A stretch of 64,000 bases of DNA, taken from NCBI GenBank assembly GCA_946415365.1, contig CAMKSE010000003.1, positions 168,174 through 232,173 of the forward strand, given 5' to 3'. The number at the start of each line of letters is the position of its first letter. Within the stretch, counting starts at the first letter, position 1. Under the pieces are notes generated by a model. That model was not told the DNA's origin and searched no databases. It worked only from the letters and a program-made list of their open reading frames with translations. The translations under genes and the position numbers were made by a program. This DNA is from an uncultured Prevotellaceae bacterium (GTDB taxonomy: Bacteria > Bacteroidota > Bacteroidia > Bacteroidales > Bacteroidaceae). Below are positions 1,519 to 11,281 of this stretch, piece by piece.

Positions 1519-1743
1519 TCACCAACGGAGGCGGATGCCAAGTGGCAGAGTGATGCTTAATGGGTGTTCTGTACGGTAGGTCTTGATATTGCTGCCATCG
1601 TCGACAAAGTATTGCAGGCTGGGCTCTAAATAGATGCCGAGATAGTGCAGACGCAGACGTTCTTGGATATAGGCTTGGCTACTGCCAGTCTTGATAGTGG
1701 AACTGAGCCTGTATTGCTGATATAAGCGCTCATTACTCAGCAT
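1519..1743 (-). pseudogene. doubly deleted remnant of a sigma-barrel fusion gene
   Basis: The 74 codons read as three pieces of the 547-residue protein encoded at 7727-9370, joined in frame. SNERLYQQYR is the sigma N-terminus (residues 9-18 there); RLSSTIKTGSSQAYIQE...HYLG is one barrel segment; and IYLEPSLQYF...LPLGIRLRW is the barrel C-terminus. About 390 residues are lost at the first junction and about 70 at the second. The 5' flank (1766-1880) also matches the flank of the intact gene (9385-9500), so a whole locus was duplicated and then deleted. The remnant keeps an ATG where the intact copy has ATA. A short translated product is possible, but a working sigma factor or barrel is not. 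Confidence 0.85.
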
Positions 1744-1995
1744 CGTCGATCTTGCTGGATACTTTAGATATACGTTGCAAATTTAATTCTTTCTTCTTAT
1801 ATTGTGTTCAGAAGAGCGGAATGACTGCATAAGGGAATAAGTATTTTAACAATGTTTTCGATTTAGGGAGTCTCTTCTACTAATTTTAACAATACAGGGC
1901 ACCTTTATACCCTCTGTAATATCAGGGAAAACAGTGTGAAAGTATGCCCCCCTACACCTTTTGGGGCTAATCGACTGATTATCAGCGTAAAATTC

Positions 1996-5365: not shown

Positions 5366-5914
5366 GTGCAGGAGACAGAACGACAGCTGATAGAAGCGAT
5401 ACAGGCTGGTGACAAAGGGGCGTTGCGACGCCTCTATGAACGGTTCGCCAGATATGCGATGGGTGTGACGCTGAGGTATGTGCCGACGCGAGACGACGCA
5501 CTCGACATCGTACAAGACAGCTTTGTCGGCATCCTCACCAACATCGGTACTTTCAAGTATCAAGGCGAGGGATCCCTGAAGTTCTGGGTGGCGAAGATTG
5601 TCAGCAATCAAGCCGTCAACTGGATCAAGGAACATCAACAGCTATCGTTCTCAGACCTAACGTCTGATGAAATCGAGGACGAAGAGGAGGCTATCGTCGA
5701 AAAGGTGCCTCCAGACATATTGAATGGGATGATAGCCCGGCTGCCCCTGAGATACAGGGTTGTCGTTAACCTACGTACTTTCGAGCAGCTCTCCCATAAA
5801 GACGTCGCGCTTAGGCTCGGCATTCCAGAAAAGACATCCGTCTTACTGTTCCATCGAGCCAAGCGCAAGTTAGAAAAGATGATCAAAGAATACTTAAACT
5901 CACAGAGGATATGA
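5366..5914 (+). CDS. ECF-type RNA polymerase sigma factor
   Basis: A 182-residue sigma-70-family protein with a GTG start at 5366. Region 2 spans about residues 20-90 (LYERFARYAMG..., DDALDIVQDSFVGILTNI, FKYQGEGSLKFWVAKIVSNQAVNWI). Region 4 spans about 125-178 (LPLRYRVVVNLRTFEQLSHKDVALRLGI...SVLLFHRAKRKLEKMI). Regions 1 and 3 are missing, as in ECF factors. It directs core polymerase to an alternative promoter set. The next gene starts inside its stop (ATGA, 4-bp overlap) and encodes the likely anti-sigma/barrel partner, so the two are probably translationally coupled. It is a paralogue of the factor at 11278-11847. Confidence 0.93.
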   Translation: MQETERQLIEAIQAGDKGALRRLYERFARYAMGVTLRYVPTRDDALDIVQDSFVGILTNIGTFKYQGEGSLKFWVAKIVSNQAVNWIKEHQQLSFSDLTSDEIEDEEEAIVEKVPPDILNGMIARLPLRYRVVVNLRTFEQLSHKDVALRLGIPEKTSVLLFHRAKRKLEKMIKEYLNSQRI

Positions 5915-7116
5915 AAGAGGAAGAATGGATAAAACGGTTACACGACCATCTGGCAGACTTCGAAGCGCCTGTCCCTGATGATTTGTGGGATAAAATCGAG
6001 GCCCGTCTTCCGAAAGAGCTGGTCGCTGAGAAGCCCAAGGCCCGCATGGTTCCCTTGTGGGTGAGATGGACGGCAGCCGCCGCTCTTGTAGGCATACTCG
6101 TCGCAACGACAGTCCTCCTTTGGCCCAAACACGCGGAAACGCCAACGGCACCAATGGCCTCAGCCACAAAGGAAGGCTATAAAACACCGATGGAATCGAC
6201 GAAAACGAATGAATCAGAATCTGTCAGCCCTGTCGTTGCAAGGAGAACGAAGCTTACCTTCAAACAGCCAACCCTCGCAGAGGCAGAGGTAACAGAGAAA
6301 GAGATGACAGAGGCGGAGGTAGCAGAGATAGCTTCCACGGTTCAGCCGGAACAATCCTCCACAGAGTCATCGGTAGAGGAAAAGCAGAAGACGGAACCAT
6401 CGCAGCAGAATTTGATACGTGAACTCGATGAGAAGATTGCAGACTACAAGATGCAGCACAAACGTCGAGTGGCTGTCAGCCTCTATGCCTCCAACGGCTT
6501 CGGCAACCTGTCGAGCAGAAACGGCGTGTTGATGAGTGATGAGATGTTGGCTTCCTACGACTATGACAGTCGCATGGGGATAAAGTCCACCCGCAGAGGC
6601 GGTGACGTCTACCTCGCCAACTACGAGGAGCGACAGAACTATTACCAGCCCATCTCCTTCGGACTGACCGCAAATTTCCCCATTTCATCGAAACTGTCAT
6701 TGTCATCTGGTGTCGTCTATACCCGTCTTCGCTCAGACTTTACCAATGTGGCGGACTACCTCATCTCTCAGCATCAGACCACGCTCCACTATATCGGCAT
6801 TCCCCTGAACGTGCAGTATCACGTCTGGCAGTGGCAGGGGCTGAACGTCTATGCAACGGCAGGCGGACAAGCCGATTTCAACGTGAAAGCGCGTCTGGAG
6901 GAAGACGGAGTGGAGCATGACATGCAGAAAGACCGCACACAGTGGTCTCTGGGTGGTGCGCTGGGCGTACAATACAACTTCATCCCACAGTTGGGCGTTT
7001 ATATCGAGCCAGGCATCAAATACTACTTCGACAATGGCAGCAACATACGCAATTACTTCAAATACCGTCCTACGAACTTCAACCTTCAGATAGGTATCAG
7101 ACTGCAAGGTTTTTAA
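5911..7116 (+). CDS. dual-membrane-spanning anti-sigma/outer-membrane barrel protein
   Basis: A 401-residue protein in four parts. Residues 1-50 are a cytoplasmic segment with P-DDLWDKIE, the likely sigma-binding helix. One inner-membrane helix lies at 51-71, followed by a charged low-complexity periplasmic linker (72 to about 180) and a C-terminal barrel (about 185-401: SFGLTANFPI, LSLSSGVVYTRL, YIGIPLNVQYHV, LNVYATAGGQ, WSLGGALGVQYNF, LGVYIEPGIKYYFDNGSN, FNLQIGIRLQGF). There is no signal peptide. This layout matches the Dma type of anti-sigma factors described in Bacteroides thetaiotaomicron, which connect the outer membrane to a cytoplasmic sigma factor. It overlaps the sigma gene by 4 bp and is followed by a lipoprotein gene after 52 bp. 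The paralogue is at 10028-11281. Confidence 0.85.
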   Translation: MKEEEWIKRLHDHLADFEAPVPDDLWDKIEARLPKELVAEKPKARMVPLWVRWTAAAALVGILVATTVLLWPKHAETPTAPMASATKEGYKTPMESTKTNESESVSPVVARRTKLTFKQPTLAEAEVTEKEMTEAEVAEIASTVQPEQSSTESSVEEKQKTEPSQQNLIRELDEKIADYKMQHKRRVAVSLYASNGFGNLSSRNGVLMSDEMLASYDYDSRMGIKSTRRGGDVYLANYEERQNYYQPISFGLTANFPISSKLSLSSGVVYTRLRSDFTNVADYLISQHQTTLHYIGIPLNVQYHVWQWQGLNVYATAGGQADFNVKARLEEDGVEHDMQKDRTQWSLGGALGVQYNFIPQLGVYIEPGIKYYFDNGSNIRNYFKYRPTNFNLQIGIRLQGF

Positions 7117-7168: not shown

Positions 7169-7579
7169 ATGAAGAAAACAGTATTTATTCTGATGAGCGT
7201 ATTGCTCTCATTAGGAACATTCTGCGCTTGTGGCAATGATGACAATGCCGTTATCAATCCTAAGACGAGCCAGTTGCCGAAGCAGGCCGACTTCATCAAG
7301 ACGGTTACCGAAATCGGTTATATGACGTGCGACGCGGAGGATGGCACGTGGATCATTGACGTACCAACGCCTGTTCCGCCTGGTGAGGTTCTGATCGATG
7401 GAGGAACTTTCTATTATCTTTATGACCTGCCTGAAGAATATCAGAAGAAAGGCCTGAAAGTGAAGGCAACTTTAGATGTCTATATCTGCCACCATTTCGA
7501 TGAGAAAGAGGTAATTATCAAATATGCAGGCTGGGATTATTACGATGCAGTTCTCAAACAAATTGAGATTGCAGAATAG
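7169..7579 (+). CDS. cassette lipoprotein, paralogue of 9556-9978
   Basis: A 136-residue SPII lipoprotein (Cys21 in FCAC, then GNDDN). It aligns along its whole length with the 140-residue lipoprotein at 9556-9978: the signal is nearly identical, then QADFIKTVTE, GGTFYYLYDLPEEYQKKGLKVKA, and Y-D-AVLKQIEIAE at the C-terminus. Both are the third gene of a sigma/barrel/lipoprotein set, which argues that the lipoprotein is a functional part of the signalling unit, for instance a ligand, cap or plug of the barrel. No known domain is recognised. Confidence 0.8.
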   Translation: MKKTVFILMSVLLSLGTFCACGNDDNAVINPKTSQLPKQADFIKTVTEIGYMTCDAEDGTWIIDVPTPVPPGEVLIDGGTFYYLYDLPEEYQKKGLKVKATLDVYICHHFDEKEVIIKYAGWDYYDAVLKQIEIAE

Positions 7580-7726: not shown

Positions 7727-9370
7727 TTACCAACGGAAGCGGATACCGAGAGGTAAGGTGACACTTAGTGGGTGTTCTGTACGATAGGTCTTGATATTAC
7801 TGCCATTATCGAAGAAGTATTGCAGGCTGGGTTCCAGATAGATGCCGAGATGCGGCGTAAAGTCGTATTGCAAGCCTATGCCGAGCGTTGTAGATAATTG
7901 GTTGGGAGCGTTCAGTGTCGATTCATTGTGATAGGTGGTGCTGCCGTTGGAAATATGGTTGACATCGGTGGTGCTGCGTATAGGTAATTCCAACATAAGC
8001 CCTGCAGAAGAGTAGAGGCTGAGGTGTGCCCTGCTGTACCACTGCCAACCAAGACGGAATGGAACACCAAGATAATGAATCCGCTGATGTTCCTGGATAT
8101 AGGCCTGGCTGCTGCCAGTGTTGATGGTGGAACTGAGCCGTGTGTAACTGAGTCCCGTCTCGAAGGACAGCCGTTGGGAGAGCTGACGGCTGAGAAGCAA
8201 TTGGATGGTGATAGGCAATTGATGTTCGTGTTGAGCCTCCATCTTGCCGCCGTTGACGGCAGAGTTTTGGGTAGCGATGTTGATTAGGGAACGGGTTTCC
8301 GGATCATCCGATACATAAGGACTGTTGCTCAGATAGTAATTGTAAACAAACCAATTGTCATATGCATCTTCTGTTGGAATCTGGCTGTTAGTGGCAGCAT
8401 CAAAACTGCCTTTGCCGACGGTGGTTGCTGCCAGATAGTCGTCACGCTGGCCTATCTGTCCGTTGTAAGCCAGTTTGAGGTCCCACTTATCTGATGGTTC
8501 ATACTTCGTAGTTACCGTGAGGTGGTATTCTTCGTTGGATGGCAATGGTGGTAATGGTTGATAGATCAGCGTATCTCGAGGAGACTCCTCCTCTTGGGCT
8601 GTTTCTGTCAGGGTGTCTGTTCTCTCCTCAATAGCATGGTAAGGTATAGAGTCAGGCTGGACGACAGCCTCTGTCTGATAGTTGACGGGACTTGATGACG
8701 GTCTCTTGCCGGCAGCGGCATAGACAGGCTTGTCGTTAGGTCTTTCAACGACGGGCTTAGGCTGTTGAGGCTCTGATGAGGTCTTACGGGCTGTCGCAGG
8801 TTGTTCGGTAGGCTCTTCTTTCTGCAAGAGCTTCCAAACTGCCGTAGGAATGGCGATAAGTAATAGGAAAAGTACCCACGACTGACGGATCAGCGCCCTG
8901 AGCATTCGTTTGGCGTGAGCGAGCTGTGAGGAAGATGAGTGAGGGGCTATGCCGAGCAGCTGGCTGATCTCCTGATGCGATAAGCCCTCAAACACAGACA
9001 GCCTGAACACCTGCTGATAGCCTTGCGGCAATTGGGATACGAGTGATTGCAGTTCGTCATAGTCAGGAGCCTGGTTTGTCTCTGCGGTCTCTGGCCTCTC
9101 CTGCGCAAAACGTTGAAGTGCCGATTGTTCCTTATTGAGATGCTGGCGATAGTGGTAGCCCACGTTCCTGACGATAGCCGTCATCCACGACTCTATCTTT
9201 TCTGGATCCTCCAACTTGTCGAGCGAGGTCAGGATAATCACAAAGGCATCATGCAACAGATCTTCCGCCACATCATCCTCTCCTGCATATTCTTTACAGA
9301 TATTCAGGAGTTTGGGCCTATATTGCTGATATAAGCGCTCGTTACTCTGTATTGGCGATTTTGTCGGCAA
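7727..9370 (-). CDS. sigma factor fused to inner-membrane helix and outer-membrane barrel
   Basis: One 547-codon frame contains sigma region 2 (about 15-80: LYQQYRPKLLNICKEYAG, DDVAEDLLHDAFVIILTSL, IESWMTAIVRNV), sigma region 4 (about 106-160: LPQGYQQVFRLSVFEGLSHQEISQLLGI...AHAKRMLRAL), a membrane helix (164-182: WVLFLLLIAIPTAVWKLL), a Pro/Glu/Gln-rich linker of about 100 residues and a beta-barrel (about 285-547, ending TLPLGIRFRW). The two neighbouring cassettes carry the same modules as two genes, with an anti-sigma N-terminus on the barrel protein; here that segment is absent and the sigma domain is tethered instead. No frameshift is needed to read it. The start is uncertain: TTG at 9370 is the only usual codon near the promoter, and the decayed copy has ATG where this one has ATA. 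Transcription is separate (terminator 9503-9524, promoter 9390-9397). Confidence 0.85.
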   Translation of the reverse strand: MPTKSPIQSNERLYQQYRPKLLNICKEYAGEDDVAEDLLHDAFVIILTSLDKLEDPEKIESWMTAIVRNVGYHYRQHLNKEQSALQRFAQERPETAETNQAPDYDELQSLVSQLPQGYQQVFRLSVFEGLSHQEISQLLGIAPHSSSSQLAHAKRMLRALIRQSWVLFLLLIAIPTAVWKLLQKEEPTEQPATARKTSSEPQQPKPVVERPNDKPVYAAAGKRPSSSPVNYQTEAVVQPDSIPYHAIEERTDTLTETAQEEESPRDTLIYQPLPPLPSNEEYHLTVTTKYEPSDKWDLKLAYNGQIGQRDDYLAATTVGKGSFDAATNSQIPTEDAYDNWFVYNYYLSNSPYVSDDPETRSLINIATQNSAVNGGKMEAQHEHQLPITIQLLLSRQLSQRLSFETGLSYTRLSSTINTGSSQAYIQEHQRIHYLGVPFRLGWQWYSRAHLSLYSSAGLMLELPIRSTTDVNHISNGSTTYHNESTLNAPNQLSTTLGIGLQYDFTPHLGIYLEPSLQYFFDNGSNIKTYRTEHPLSVTLPLGIRFRW

Positions 9371-9389: not shown

Positions 9390-9446
9390 CAAAATTAATT
9401 CAATCTTCTTATATAGTGTTCAGAAGAGCTGAATGACTGCATGGGA
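9390..9446 (-). promoter_or_regulatory. promoter block of the sigma-barrel fusion gene
   Basis: The -7 box TAATTTTG is at 9390-9397 on the minus strand. Upstream are ACACTATATAAGAAG and GCAGTCATTCAGC. The block matches 1778-1826 almost base for base and 1441-1497 closely. Confidence 0.65.
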
Positions 9447-9555: not shown

Positions 9556-9978
9556 TTATTCCACAATCTCTATATCCCTGAGGACTGCATCGTAATACTC
9601 ATAGCCAGCATACCACATATGTTCCACTCTCTCATTGAAATGCAGGAAGGTATAGCAATCTAAAGACGCCTTCACTTTCAGACCTTCCTTTTGATATTCT
9701 ACTGGCAAGTCATACAGATAATAGATGTTTCCACCATCATATCTTATTTCCTGACCATGATAAGGAGATTTAATGAACCATGTGTTATCCGCTTTATCAC
9801 ACATGAGAACCCCCGTATCTGTAACCGTCTTGATAAAGTCGGCCAATGCTGGCATTTGACGTGTCGGATGACCAGTTGCGGAATTTTCTGGAGTATCGAT
9901 ATCGTCATCACTGCTGCAAGCGCAGAATGTTCCTAATGAAAGCAATACGCTCATCAGAATAAATGCTGTTTTCTTCAT
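9556..9978 (-). CDS. cassette lipoprotein, paralogue of 7169-7579
   Basis: A 140-residue SPII lipoprotein (Cys21, then SSDDD) that is homologous over its full length to the product of 7169-7579, sharing ADFIKTVTDTG, GGNIYYLYDLPVEYQKEGLKVKA and EYYDAVLRDIEIVE. It is the last gene of the minus-strand set sigma (11847-11278), barrel (11281-10028), lipoprotein, and it is followed by a terminator. The sequence just before its ATG resembles the one before the paralogue, so the duplication included non-coding sequence. Function unknown; it probably works with the barrel protein. Confidence 0.8.
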   Translation of the reverse strand: MKKTAFILMSVLLSLGTFCACSSDDDIDTPENSATGHPTRQMPALADFIKTVTDTGVLMCDKADNTWFIKSPYHGQEIRYDGGNIYYLYDLPVEYQKEGLKVKASLDCYTFLHFNERVEHMWYAGYEYYDAVLRDIEIVE

Positions 9979-10027: not shown

Positions 10028-11281
10028 TTACTTGATGTTGATTTTCAGACCTACATTCAGGTTAAAACCGAAAGGCTTGTCGCGATAGTAGGTGGGCAGA
10101 CTGCTGCCGTTGTCGAAGTAATAGCCAACGCCAGGCTCTGCATAGATGCTGAACCAGCGGCTGAGATTGAATTCTGCGCCAATGGCTCCGTTCACGGAGA
10201 ACTGCAGCGGACGAATGGACACACTCTCCGTCGTCTCCAATTTGTCCTCACTCTCTTCAATATGCAGGCGGCCTTTTACCATCTTTTCTGCCATACCGCC
10301 AGCCGTGACATAGAAACTGCCATAATGACTTCCCCACAGCTGATAGCTGACATTGGCTGGGATGCCGATATACGACAGCGTCTGTTCTATATTCGAAGTA
10401 ACGGTCACGTCTGGTTTAAGATCTGTTGGAAGAGCAGTATGGATGTCAGAACAAAGGCGTGTATAGACCAATCCACTTTCGAGGCTCCATCTGTTGTTGA
10501 GGCGATAGCGCAGGGAAAGACCGTAACGTATTGGCAAGTTGTGGTATACATCACTCTTTGCAGCACCACTTGCATAATCTGAGAGGCTTCTCGTTGGGAC
10601 GTCAAGGGGCTTTCCATCTGGACCTACAATGACATAATTATAAGTATGAATAATTTCAGTCGGAATGTTATGCTCTGTCTCTTTCATCGCGCCATTCGTC
10701 AGATACACCTTTGCCATCAGGCGGTTTCCTGAAACCGCTGGCTTGCGGATGTCTGTAGGATAGTCAAGTGGAAGAGGCATGGGAGAAGTGTTCGCAATTT
10801 GGGTATGAGAGTCTTCGTCGTGTGGGGCAGAAGATTCTTCCGCCAGCTGAACTGAAAGTTCCTCTTCCTGCTGCAATACTTCCGGCTCCGGCTGAGGCTC
10901 TGACGGTAGAGTGTCCGTCGGCAATACTTGTGGCTTGTGACTGACAGACAACATCTTAGACTTGTGGCTAACGGATTCTTTTGCGACAATCTTTTCTTCC
11001 TTTGGCTGAGGACTTGTCTCCTTGTTACTAACCTCAGTCTCCACATTATTCGCTGTTGTAGTATCCTCCTGCTGATTCCATGCCAGATAGCCTGTTGTGA
11101 CAGCCACCAGCACCACAACGGCTGCCGCTATCCTGCGAGTCCACATCTGGACTATCCTTGCCTTCGCCTTTTGCCTGTTGTTGGCGAGTGCCTTCTCAAT
11201 CTCATCCCACGACACCTCAGGGGCGGGCTGTCTGTAGCCTGCCAACTTCTGTTGCATCTGTTGTATCCATTGTTCTTTCAT
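10028..11281 (-). CDS. dual-membrane-spanning anti-sigma/outer-membrane barrel protein
   Basis: A 417-residue paralogue of the product of 5911-7116. Residues 1-48 are cytoplasmic with APEVSWDEIEKAL, matching the W-D-x-I-E segment of the paralogue. A membrane helix (49-67: RRIAAAVVVLVAVTTGYLAW) leads to a long acidic, Glu/Ser/Pro-rich linker (about 70-175) and a C-terminal barrel (RYGLSLRYRLNN, WSLESGLVYTRLCSD, YIGIPANVSYQLW, SFYVTAGGMAEKM, FSVNGAIGAEFNLS, FSIYAEPGVGYYFDNGSS, GFNLNVGLKINIK). There is no cleavable signal. By analogy with Dma proteins it should hold the sigma factor encoded just upstream (4-bp overlap) and release it when the outer membrane is perturbed. That role is inferred from architecture only. 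Confidence 0.85.
   Translation of the reverse strand: MKEQWIQQMQQKLAGYRQPAPEVSWDEIEKALANNRQKAKARIVQMWTRRIAAAVVVLVAVTTGYLAWNQQEDTTTANNVETEVSNKETSPQPKEEKIVAKESVSHKSKMLSVSHKPQVLPTDTLPSEPQPEPEVLQQEEELSVQLAEESSAPHDEDSHTQIANTSPMPLPLDYPTDIRKPAVSGNRLMAKVYLTNGAMKETEHNIPTEIIHTYNYVIVGPDGKPLDVPTRSLSDYASGAAKSDVYHNLPIRYGLSLRYRLNNRWSLESGLVYTRLCSDIHTALPTDLKPDVTVTSNIEQTLSYIGIPANVSYQLWGSHYGSFYVTAGGMAEKMVKGRLHIEESEDKLETTESVSIRPLQFSVNGAIGAEFNLSRWFSIYAEPGVGYYFDNGSSLPTYYRDKPFGFNLNVGLKINIK

Follow-up and report, generated by a model that had tools for sequence, protein, structure and literature searches.

Our analysis revealed that an uncultured Prevotellaceae bacterium encodes a single chain in which an ECF sigma factor is joined to an OmpA-type barrel by way of a membrane helix and a disordered linker, both of them predicted. 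The gene lies on the stretch of DNA analysed here, which we call the window (64,000 nt; GCA_946415365.1, CAMKSE010000003.1, positions 168,174 to 232,173). A promoter-like element at fused genes of this kind points to a sigma factor that is working and self-regulating, with a largely local regulon.

A sigma factor and an outer membrane barrel in one chain

The features of the fused gene and its surroundings are listed by position in the window.

9432..9442, minus strand: -35-like box ATGCAGTCATT 5′ of the fused gene, a variant of the family element RTGCAGTCTTTT
9411..9417, minus strand: -10-like box ACTATAT, identical in the nearest relatives
7727..9370, minus strand: fused gene (sigma factor, membrane helix, linker, barrel), single open frame, 547 aa, TTG start
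9146..9334, minus strand: sigma region 2, residues 13-75
8900..9058, minus strand: sigma region 4, residues 105-157
8825..8878, minus strand: membrane helix predicted by hydropathy, proline inside, residues about 165-182
8504..8812, minus strand: predicted disordered periplasmic linker, residues about 187-289, pLDDT below 50 over most of its length
7730..8500, minus strand: outer-membrane-type barrel, residues about 291-547
5366..5914, plus strand: separate Das-like sigma factor, flanking pair 1
5911..7116, plus strand: Dma-like barrel protein, flanking pair 1, PF13568 above cut-off, N-terminal anti-sigma-like stretch and helix
11278..11847, minus strand: separate Das-like sigma factor, flanking pair 2
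10028..11281, minus strand: Dma-like barrel protein, flanking pair 2, PF13505 above cut-off
1522..1830, minus strand: decayed twin of the fused gene, boxes at about 1799-1830, 87-aa remnant frame at 1522-1782

The Pfam domain search returned PF04542 and PF08281 above cut-off, TIGR02937 matched with 77.0 bits (cut-off 42.9), and the N-terminal part is an ECF sigma factor in having regions 2 and 4 without region 3. The C-terminal part has an OmpA-type barrel fold. An initial annotation had read this build of sigma regions 2 and 4, helix, linker of roughly 100 residues and barrel from the sequence, and domain search, hydropathy and a structure model confirm it, the linker of about 105 residues being disordered in the model. 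In the same model the helix of sigma region 4 and the membrane helix form one continuous helix (residues 143-182). Neither domain search nor model revealed an anti-sigma domain in the window protein, as only the disordered linker and the barrel follow the helix.

The gene stands between two cassettes that, as the initial annotation had pointed out, both consist of a separate Das-like sigma factor and a Dma-like barrel protein. The barrel proteins of pair 1 and pair 2 gave weak matches to the anti-sigma model NF052375 (25.7 and 26.4 bits, respectively, against a cut-off of 100). Each of the pairs is accompanied by one of two related small lipoprotein-like genes (7169-7579, plus strand; 9556-9978, minus strand), for which no Pfam family scored above cut-off. 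The decayed twin has retained the same promoter-like element together with the beginning of the sigma part, the remainder being mostly lost, and is followed on the same strand by two lipoprotein-like genes (992-1423 and 492-983). Two further fused genes are found in the genome of the window, at C2 and C20.

Relation to Dma proteins

Dma1 and Dma2 likewise carry a helix, a disordered tether and a C-terminal barrel in one chain and involve an ECF sigma factor; however, their chain starts with an anti-sigma segment and the sigma factors Das1 and Das2 are separate, whereas the window chain starts with the sigma factor itself (PMC13088901). In its predicted membrane helix, disordered tether and C-terminal barrel the window protein agrees with Dma1 and Dma2, but it lacks their N-terminal anti-sigma segment and, apparently, their separate cognate sigma gene. 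Two Das-like genes lie near it, each joined to its own Dma-like gene. For comparison we used a set of 25 Das/Dma-like pairs. The gap between sigma region 4 and the helix has a median of 7 residues (range 2-15; n=84 fused proteins measured), which leaves no room for the anti-sigma segment of Dma proteins. The linker comprises at least 90 residues in the 86 of 95 fused proteins in which it was measurable, and a proline lies inside the membrane helix in 74 of the 95 compared with 1 of 25 Dma partners.

The initial annotation, which is partly supported overall, knew of no described protein of this build, and this point needs correction. Dma3 of Bacteroides thetaiotaomicron is reported to carry an N-terminal sigma domain in a Dma-type chain, as does the window protein, with its function given as unknown and very little as known about it (PMC13088901). 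According to the same paper the dma3 locus (bt_2778-2779) is raised in both the dma1 and the dma2 deletion, and deletion of dma3 did not restore the vesicle profile (PMC13088901). BT_2778 appears in published iron tables as a sigma-70 family factor that changes 2.3-fold, apparently upward under iron limitation (PMC10434189). Dma3 is likened here by its published description; by sequence, the window protein was compared with Bacteroides-type fused proteins and shares about 30-35% identity with them. The sister species B. faecis has two fused genes of the window build, one of them followed by a methyltransferase gene. The window protein differs from Dma3 in its shortened N-terminus and in its position between two Das/Dma-like pairs.

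Occurrence and origin of the fused genes

Among the best 80 of 453 relatives, the fusion was present in one frame at 74 of 80 named loci; three of the remaining six loci stop at a contig edge and three are interrupted. These counts come from our own translations because the open-frame length given by the scan can cross a stop, as it also did at three Das/Dma pairs. Including duplicates, 118 fused frames were found among the loci examined, and 114 of the 120 protein-search matches listed (out of 2502) are longer than 530 aa. Titles of records with fused genes name Bacteroides, Phocaeicola, Alloprevotella, Prevotella, Muribaculaceae and others. Within the family at least 82 of 251 genomes had a match at E 1e-28, a lower bound since up to five candidates were scored per genome, and some of the matches are not fused genes. 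No intact fused gene was detected at E 1e-45 in 198 order-level and 296 phylum-level genomes outside the window's own genome.

Nothing was found in favour of an assembly or sequencing error that joined two genes at about 8875-8900. The 74 of 80 fused loci rule it out, and the 118 fused frames and the near-identical 547-aa proteins from several sources (95-98% identity, protein search) speak against it in the same way, so that we regard it as extremely improbable; the statement of the initial annotation that there is no frameshift holds for the single 547-aa frame. These homologues also suggest that the window gene is maintained. It is nevertheless atypical among its kin in its TTG start and its shorter N-terminus, the latter being common to the closest relatives; its element is 2 bases off the consensus, and no convincing second copy of the element was found 3′ of its stop.

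Several candidates were rejected as fused genes. The G656 match contains two stops, the G002 match is interrupted, and two long open frames reported for G652 held no frame above 480 aa on reading. Two stretches in viral contigs fitted a pattern for a relative and neither was confirmed. At three loci (L055, L056, L057) Das/Dma-like pairs stand each in-frame with a single stop codon between the two parts.

A FastTree of the sigma domains groups the 62 fused representatives without exception in one clade (support 0.709), sister to the separate Das-like factors, and the B. faecis fused genes (L074) fall into the clade of the window gene. The barrel tree places all 62 on one side, where a single pair barrel joins them (support 0.855). 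Based on both trees the fusion most likely arose once, with modest support.

A promoter-like element at the fused genes

The element RTGCAGTCTTTT (at least 10 of 12 positions) was found upstream of 77 of 94 non-redundant fused genes, compared with 0.92 on average and no more than 5 in 200 rounds of shuffled upstream regions. With a -10-like box about 25 nt beyond it, these 77 genes have the conserved -35 and -10 boxes of an ECF factor's own promoter; the bases of the box are near invariant and the spacer is variable. Thirteen of the 17 genes that were missed were checked further upstream, and in seven the element stood ahead of another gene, for a lipoprotein or similar protein, which lies on the same strand before the fused gene. 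These seven are nearest relatives of the window gene, with the -10 box ACACTATA that is also present in the window. The lipoprotein before fused genes of the window type (L105, L114, L123, L022) looks related, at about 23-25% identity, to one of the C2 type (L060:2800-3363), which stands behind the fused gene.

A further copy (at least 10 of 11) follows within 700 nt after the fused stop in 69 of 104 loci and within 49 nt in 63 of 104, some of the counted sites, including that of the window, being without a convincing -10 box. Lineages differ in their -10 variants. Within a locus, the -10 boxes of the upstream and downstream copies agree at 9.18 of 14 positions compared with 7.64 after permutation (maximum 8.23; 0 of 2000; 62 loci), and at 8.95 compared with 7.15 (0 of 2000) when 37 more distant loci are added, in a test that ignores kinship of the loci. 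The spacers of the two copies do not co-vary (297 of 2000 with 62 loci, 165 of 2000 with the 37 more). The co-variation of the -10 boxes is the strongest indication we have that the tethered protein functions as a sigma factor at these sites, and chance as the source of the element is rejected by both the upstream shuffles and the -10 permutations. The window contains two matches to RTGCAGTCNTT, one at the fused gene and the other at the decayed twin, where 0.37 is expected; since 5 of 100 shuffles also held two or more, the window alone is insufficient proof of the element.

The commonest -35 boxes of Das genes (TGCAGTATTT) and fused genes (TGCAGTCTTT) differ by one base. Of 25 Das-like genes 13 have TGCAGTATTT and none TGCAGTCTTT, while the 94 fused genes include 69 with the C form of the box and 3 with the A form. 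In B. faecis one Das-like gene is preceded by GTGCAGTATTTC, no TGCAGT site was present in the 300 nt before the match of the second, and the two fused genes are preceded by ATGCAGTCTTTC and its variant CGCAGTCTTTT, each with a further copy behind. The one-base difference could mean that the sigma part no longer transcribes but titrates core polymerase or another regulator, the element belonging to another sigma factor such as Das; the reported increase of the dma3 locus upon deletion of dma1 or dma2 would also fit (PMC13088901). We consider this very unlikely, because the C form occurs in 0 of 25 Das genes and in 69 of 94 fused genes, the -10 boxes co-vary within fused loci, and the residues of sigma regions 2 and 4 are conserved.

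Behind the downstream copy stand different genes, among them a lipoprotein of about 185 aa in the Prevotella type, a methyltransferase in the B. faecis and Phocaeicola types, a glycosyltransferase in B. salyersiae and, at some loci, a radical SAM/SPASM protein, in several of them followed by a Gfo/Idh/MocA oxidoreductase. In G251 (B. faecis; C56:8962-9477, L236) a second fused gene precedes a radical SAM-like gene that has a promoter copy of its own. Counted by hand, 9 of the 34 distinct sites found in 16 genomes adjoin a fused gene. The other 25 of the 34 are not clearly above 14 control matches, and a distant regulon is therefore unproven. Three similar copies of the element in the window's own genome (G000 C3:62906, C4:106552 and C11:29614; L158, L168, L175) are followed by the start of a short lipoprotein-like frame, a shared repeat and a hairpin-like end, and look like a dispersed, mostly decayed repeat.

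Possible control of the tethered sigma factor

CadC and ToxR are transcription regulators held by one membrane helix, with a winged helix instead of a sigma factor and no known outer membrane barrel. To our knowledge there is no such barrel in the hosts of ECF52-like factors either. These factors (SCO4117 of Streptomyces) are comparable to the window protein in that a sigma domain is followed by membrane helices and an outer region; in contrast to it they carry a zinc-finger anti-sigma-like domain (PMC8999054). In IutY of Pseudomonas putida sigma and anti-sigma domains share one membrane chain, and the sigma domain is freed by Prc and RseP (PMC5411451, PMC8999054). It resembles the window protein in its sigma domain within a membrane-bound chain (PMC5411451) but has a periplasmic anti-sigma domain and signals through a separate receptor, whereas the window protein has its barrel in the chain.

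The initial annotation had rightly seen two possible modes, action at the membrane or after proteolysis, and our ranking puts proteolytic release first as the most likely one and action at the membrane second. It is moderately probable, in our judgement, that the fused protein is a one-protein surface-signalling switch whose sigma part is held off at the inner membrane until cuts free it; topology, release and signal are here what we infer. The sigma part would be inactive while tethered, and the barrel would report the state of the outer membrane or its own assembly. A cut in the linker and then, by intramembrane proteolysis, in the membrane helix would free the sigma part, for which IutY is a precedent. 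The freed sigma factor would bind RNA polymerase, read the RTGCAGTCTTTT element and raise its own gene together with the adjacent lipoprotein, radical SAM, methyltransferase or glycosyltransferase gene, depending on the lineage. One site-2-protease-family gene is present in the window's genome; since 14 of 14 control genomes also have this nearly universal family, this is weak support for release. A proline in the membrane helix would fit site-2 cleavage, and no passage supporting it as a feature of such cleavage was found in the review searched. It speaks against release that the chain has no anti-sigma domain to silence the sigma factor, such as the periplasmic one of IutY. The atypical traits of the window copy and the sites away from fused genes, which do not clearly exceed the control, count against this reading as well.

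A possible but less likely alternative is that the sigma factor is active while tethered, like CadC or ToxR, and mostly serves promoters next to its own gene; the coupling of transcription and translation to membrane insertion would draw these promoters to the membrane. Promoter copies repeated immediately 3′ of the fused gene at 63 of 104 loci would agree with this, as would the 9 of 34 sites at a fused gene with the other 25 not clearly above control, and the position of sigma region 4 almost directly at the helix (median gap 7, n=84). However, RNA polymerase is large and region 4 would have to dock only a few residues from the membrane, local autoregulation is common among ECF factors generally, and the sites at C3, C4 and C11 have a good -10 box away from fused genes. 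A wider form of this idea is rather unlikely: location alone would control a widespread class of sigma factors that have no anti-sigma domain, each a single chain reaching from DNA to the surface and transcribing, while in the membrane, neighbouring genes that coupled expression and insertion would hold there.

The long linker, predicted as disordered, would also allow for a constitutive early cut that yields a free sigma factor and an unrelated barrel without any surface signalling. This appears improbable, since the fusion, the spacing of 2-15 residues between sigma part and helix and the linker of at least 90 residues (86 of 95) have been retained by very divergent relatives, and this conservation suggests that being joined is important.

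Meaning of the fused family

While the build itself is already known from Dma3, the literature searched gave no mention of the promoter element, the breadth of the family or the predicted regulon, which appear to be new. For Dma3 this search, which was incomplete and does not prove absence, found no published promoter motif or regulon. Given the one-base difference in the -35 box, freed Das factors might read the dma3 promoter, which could explain why deletion of dma1 or dma2 is reported to raise the dma3 locus. The fused proteins are a family in many Bacteroidales, most likely of one origin. Their promoter element and predicted local regulon are testable in B. thetaiotaomicron, and through this family the silencing of a sigma factor without an anti-sigma domain becomes testable as well.
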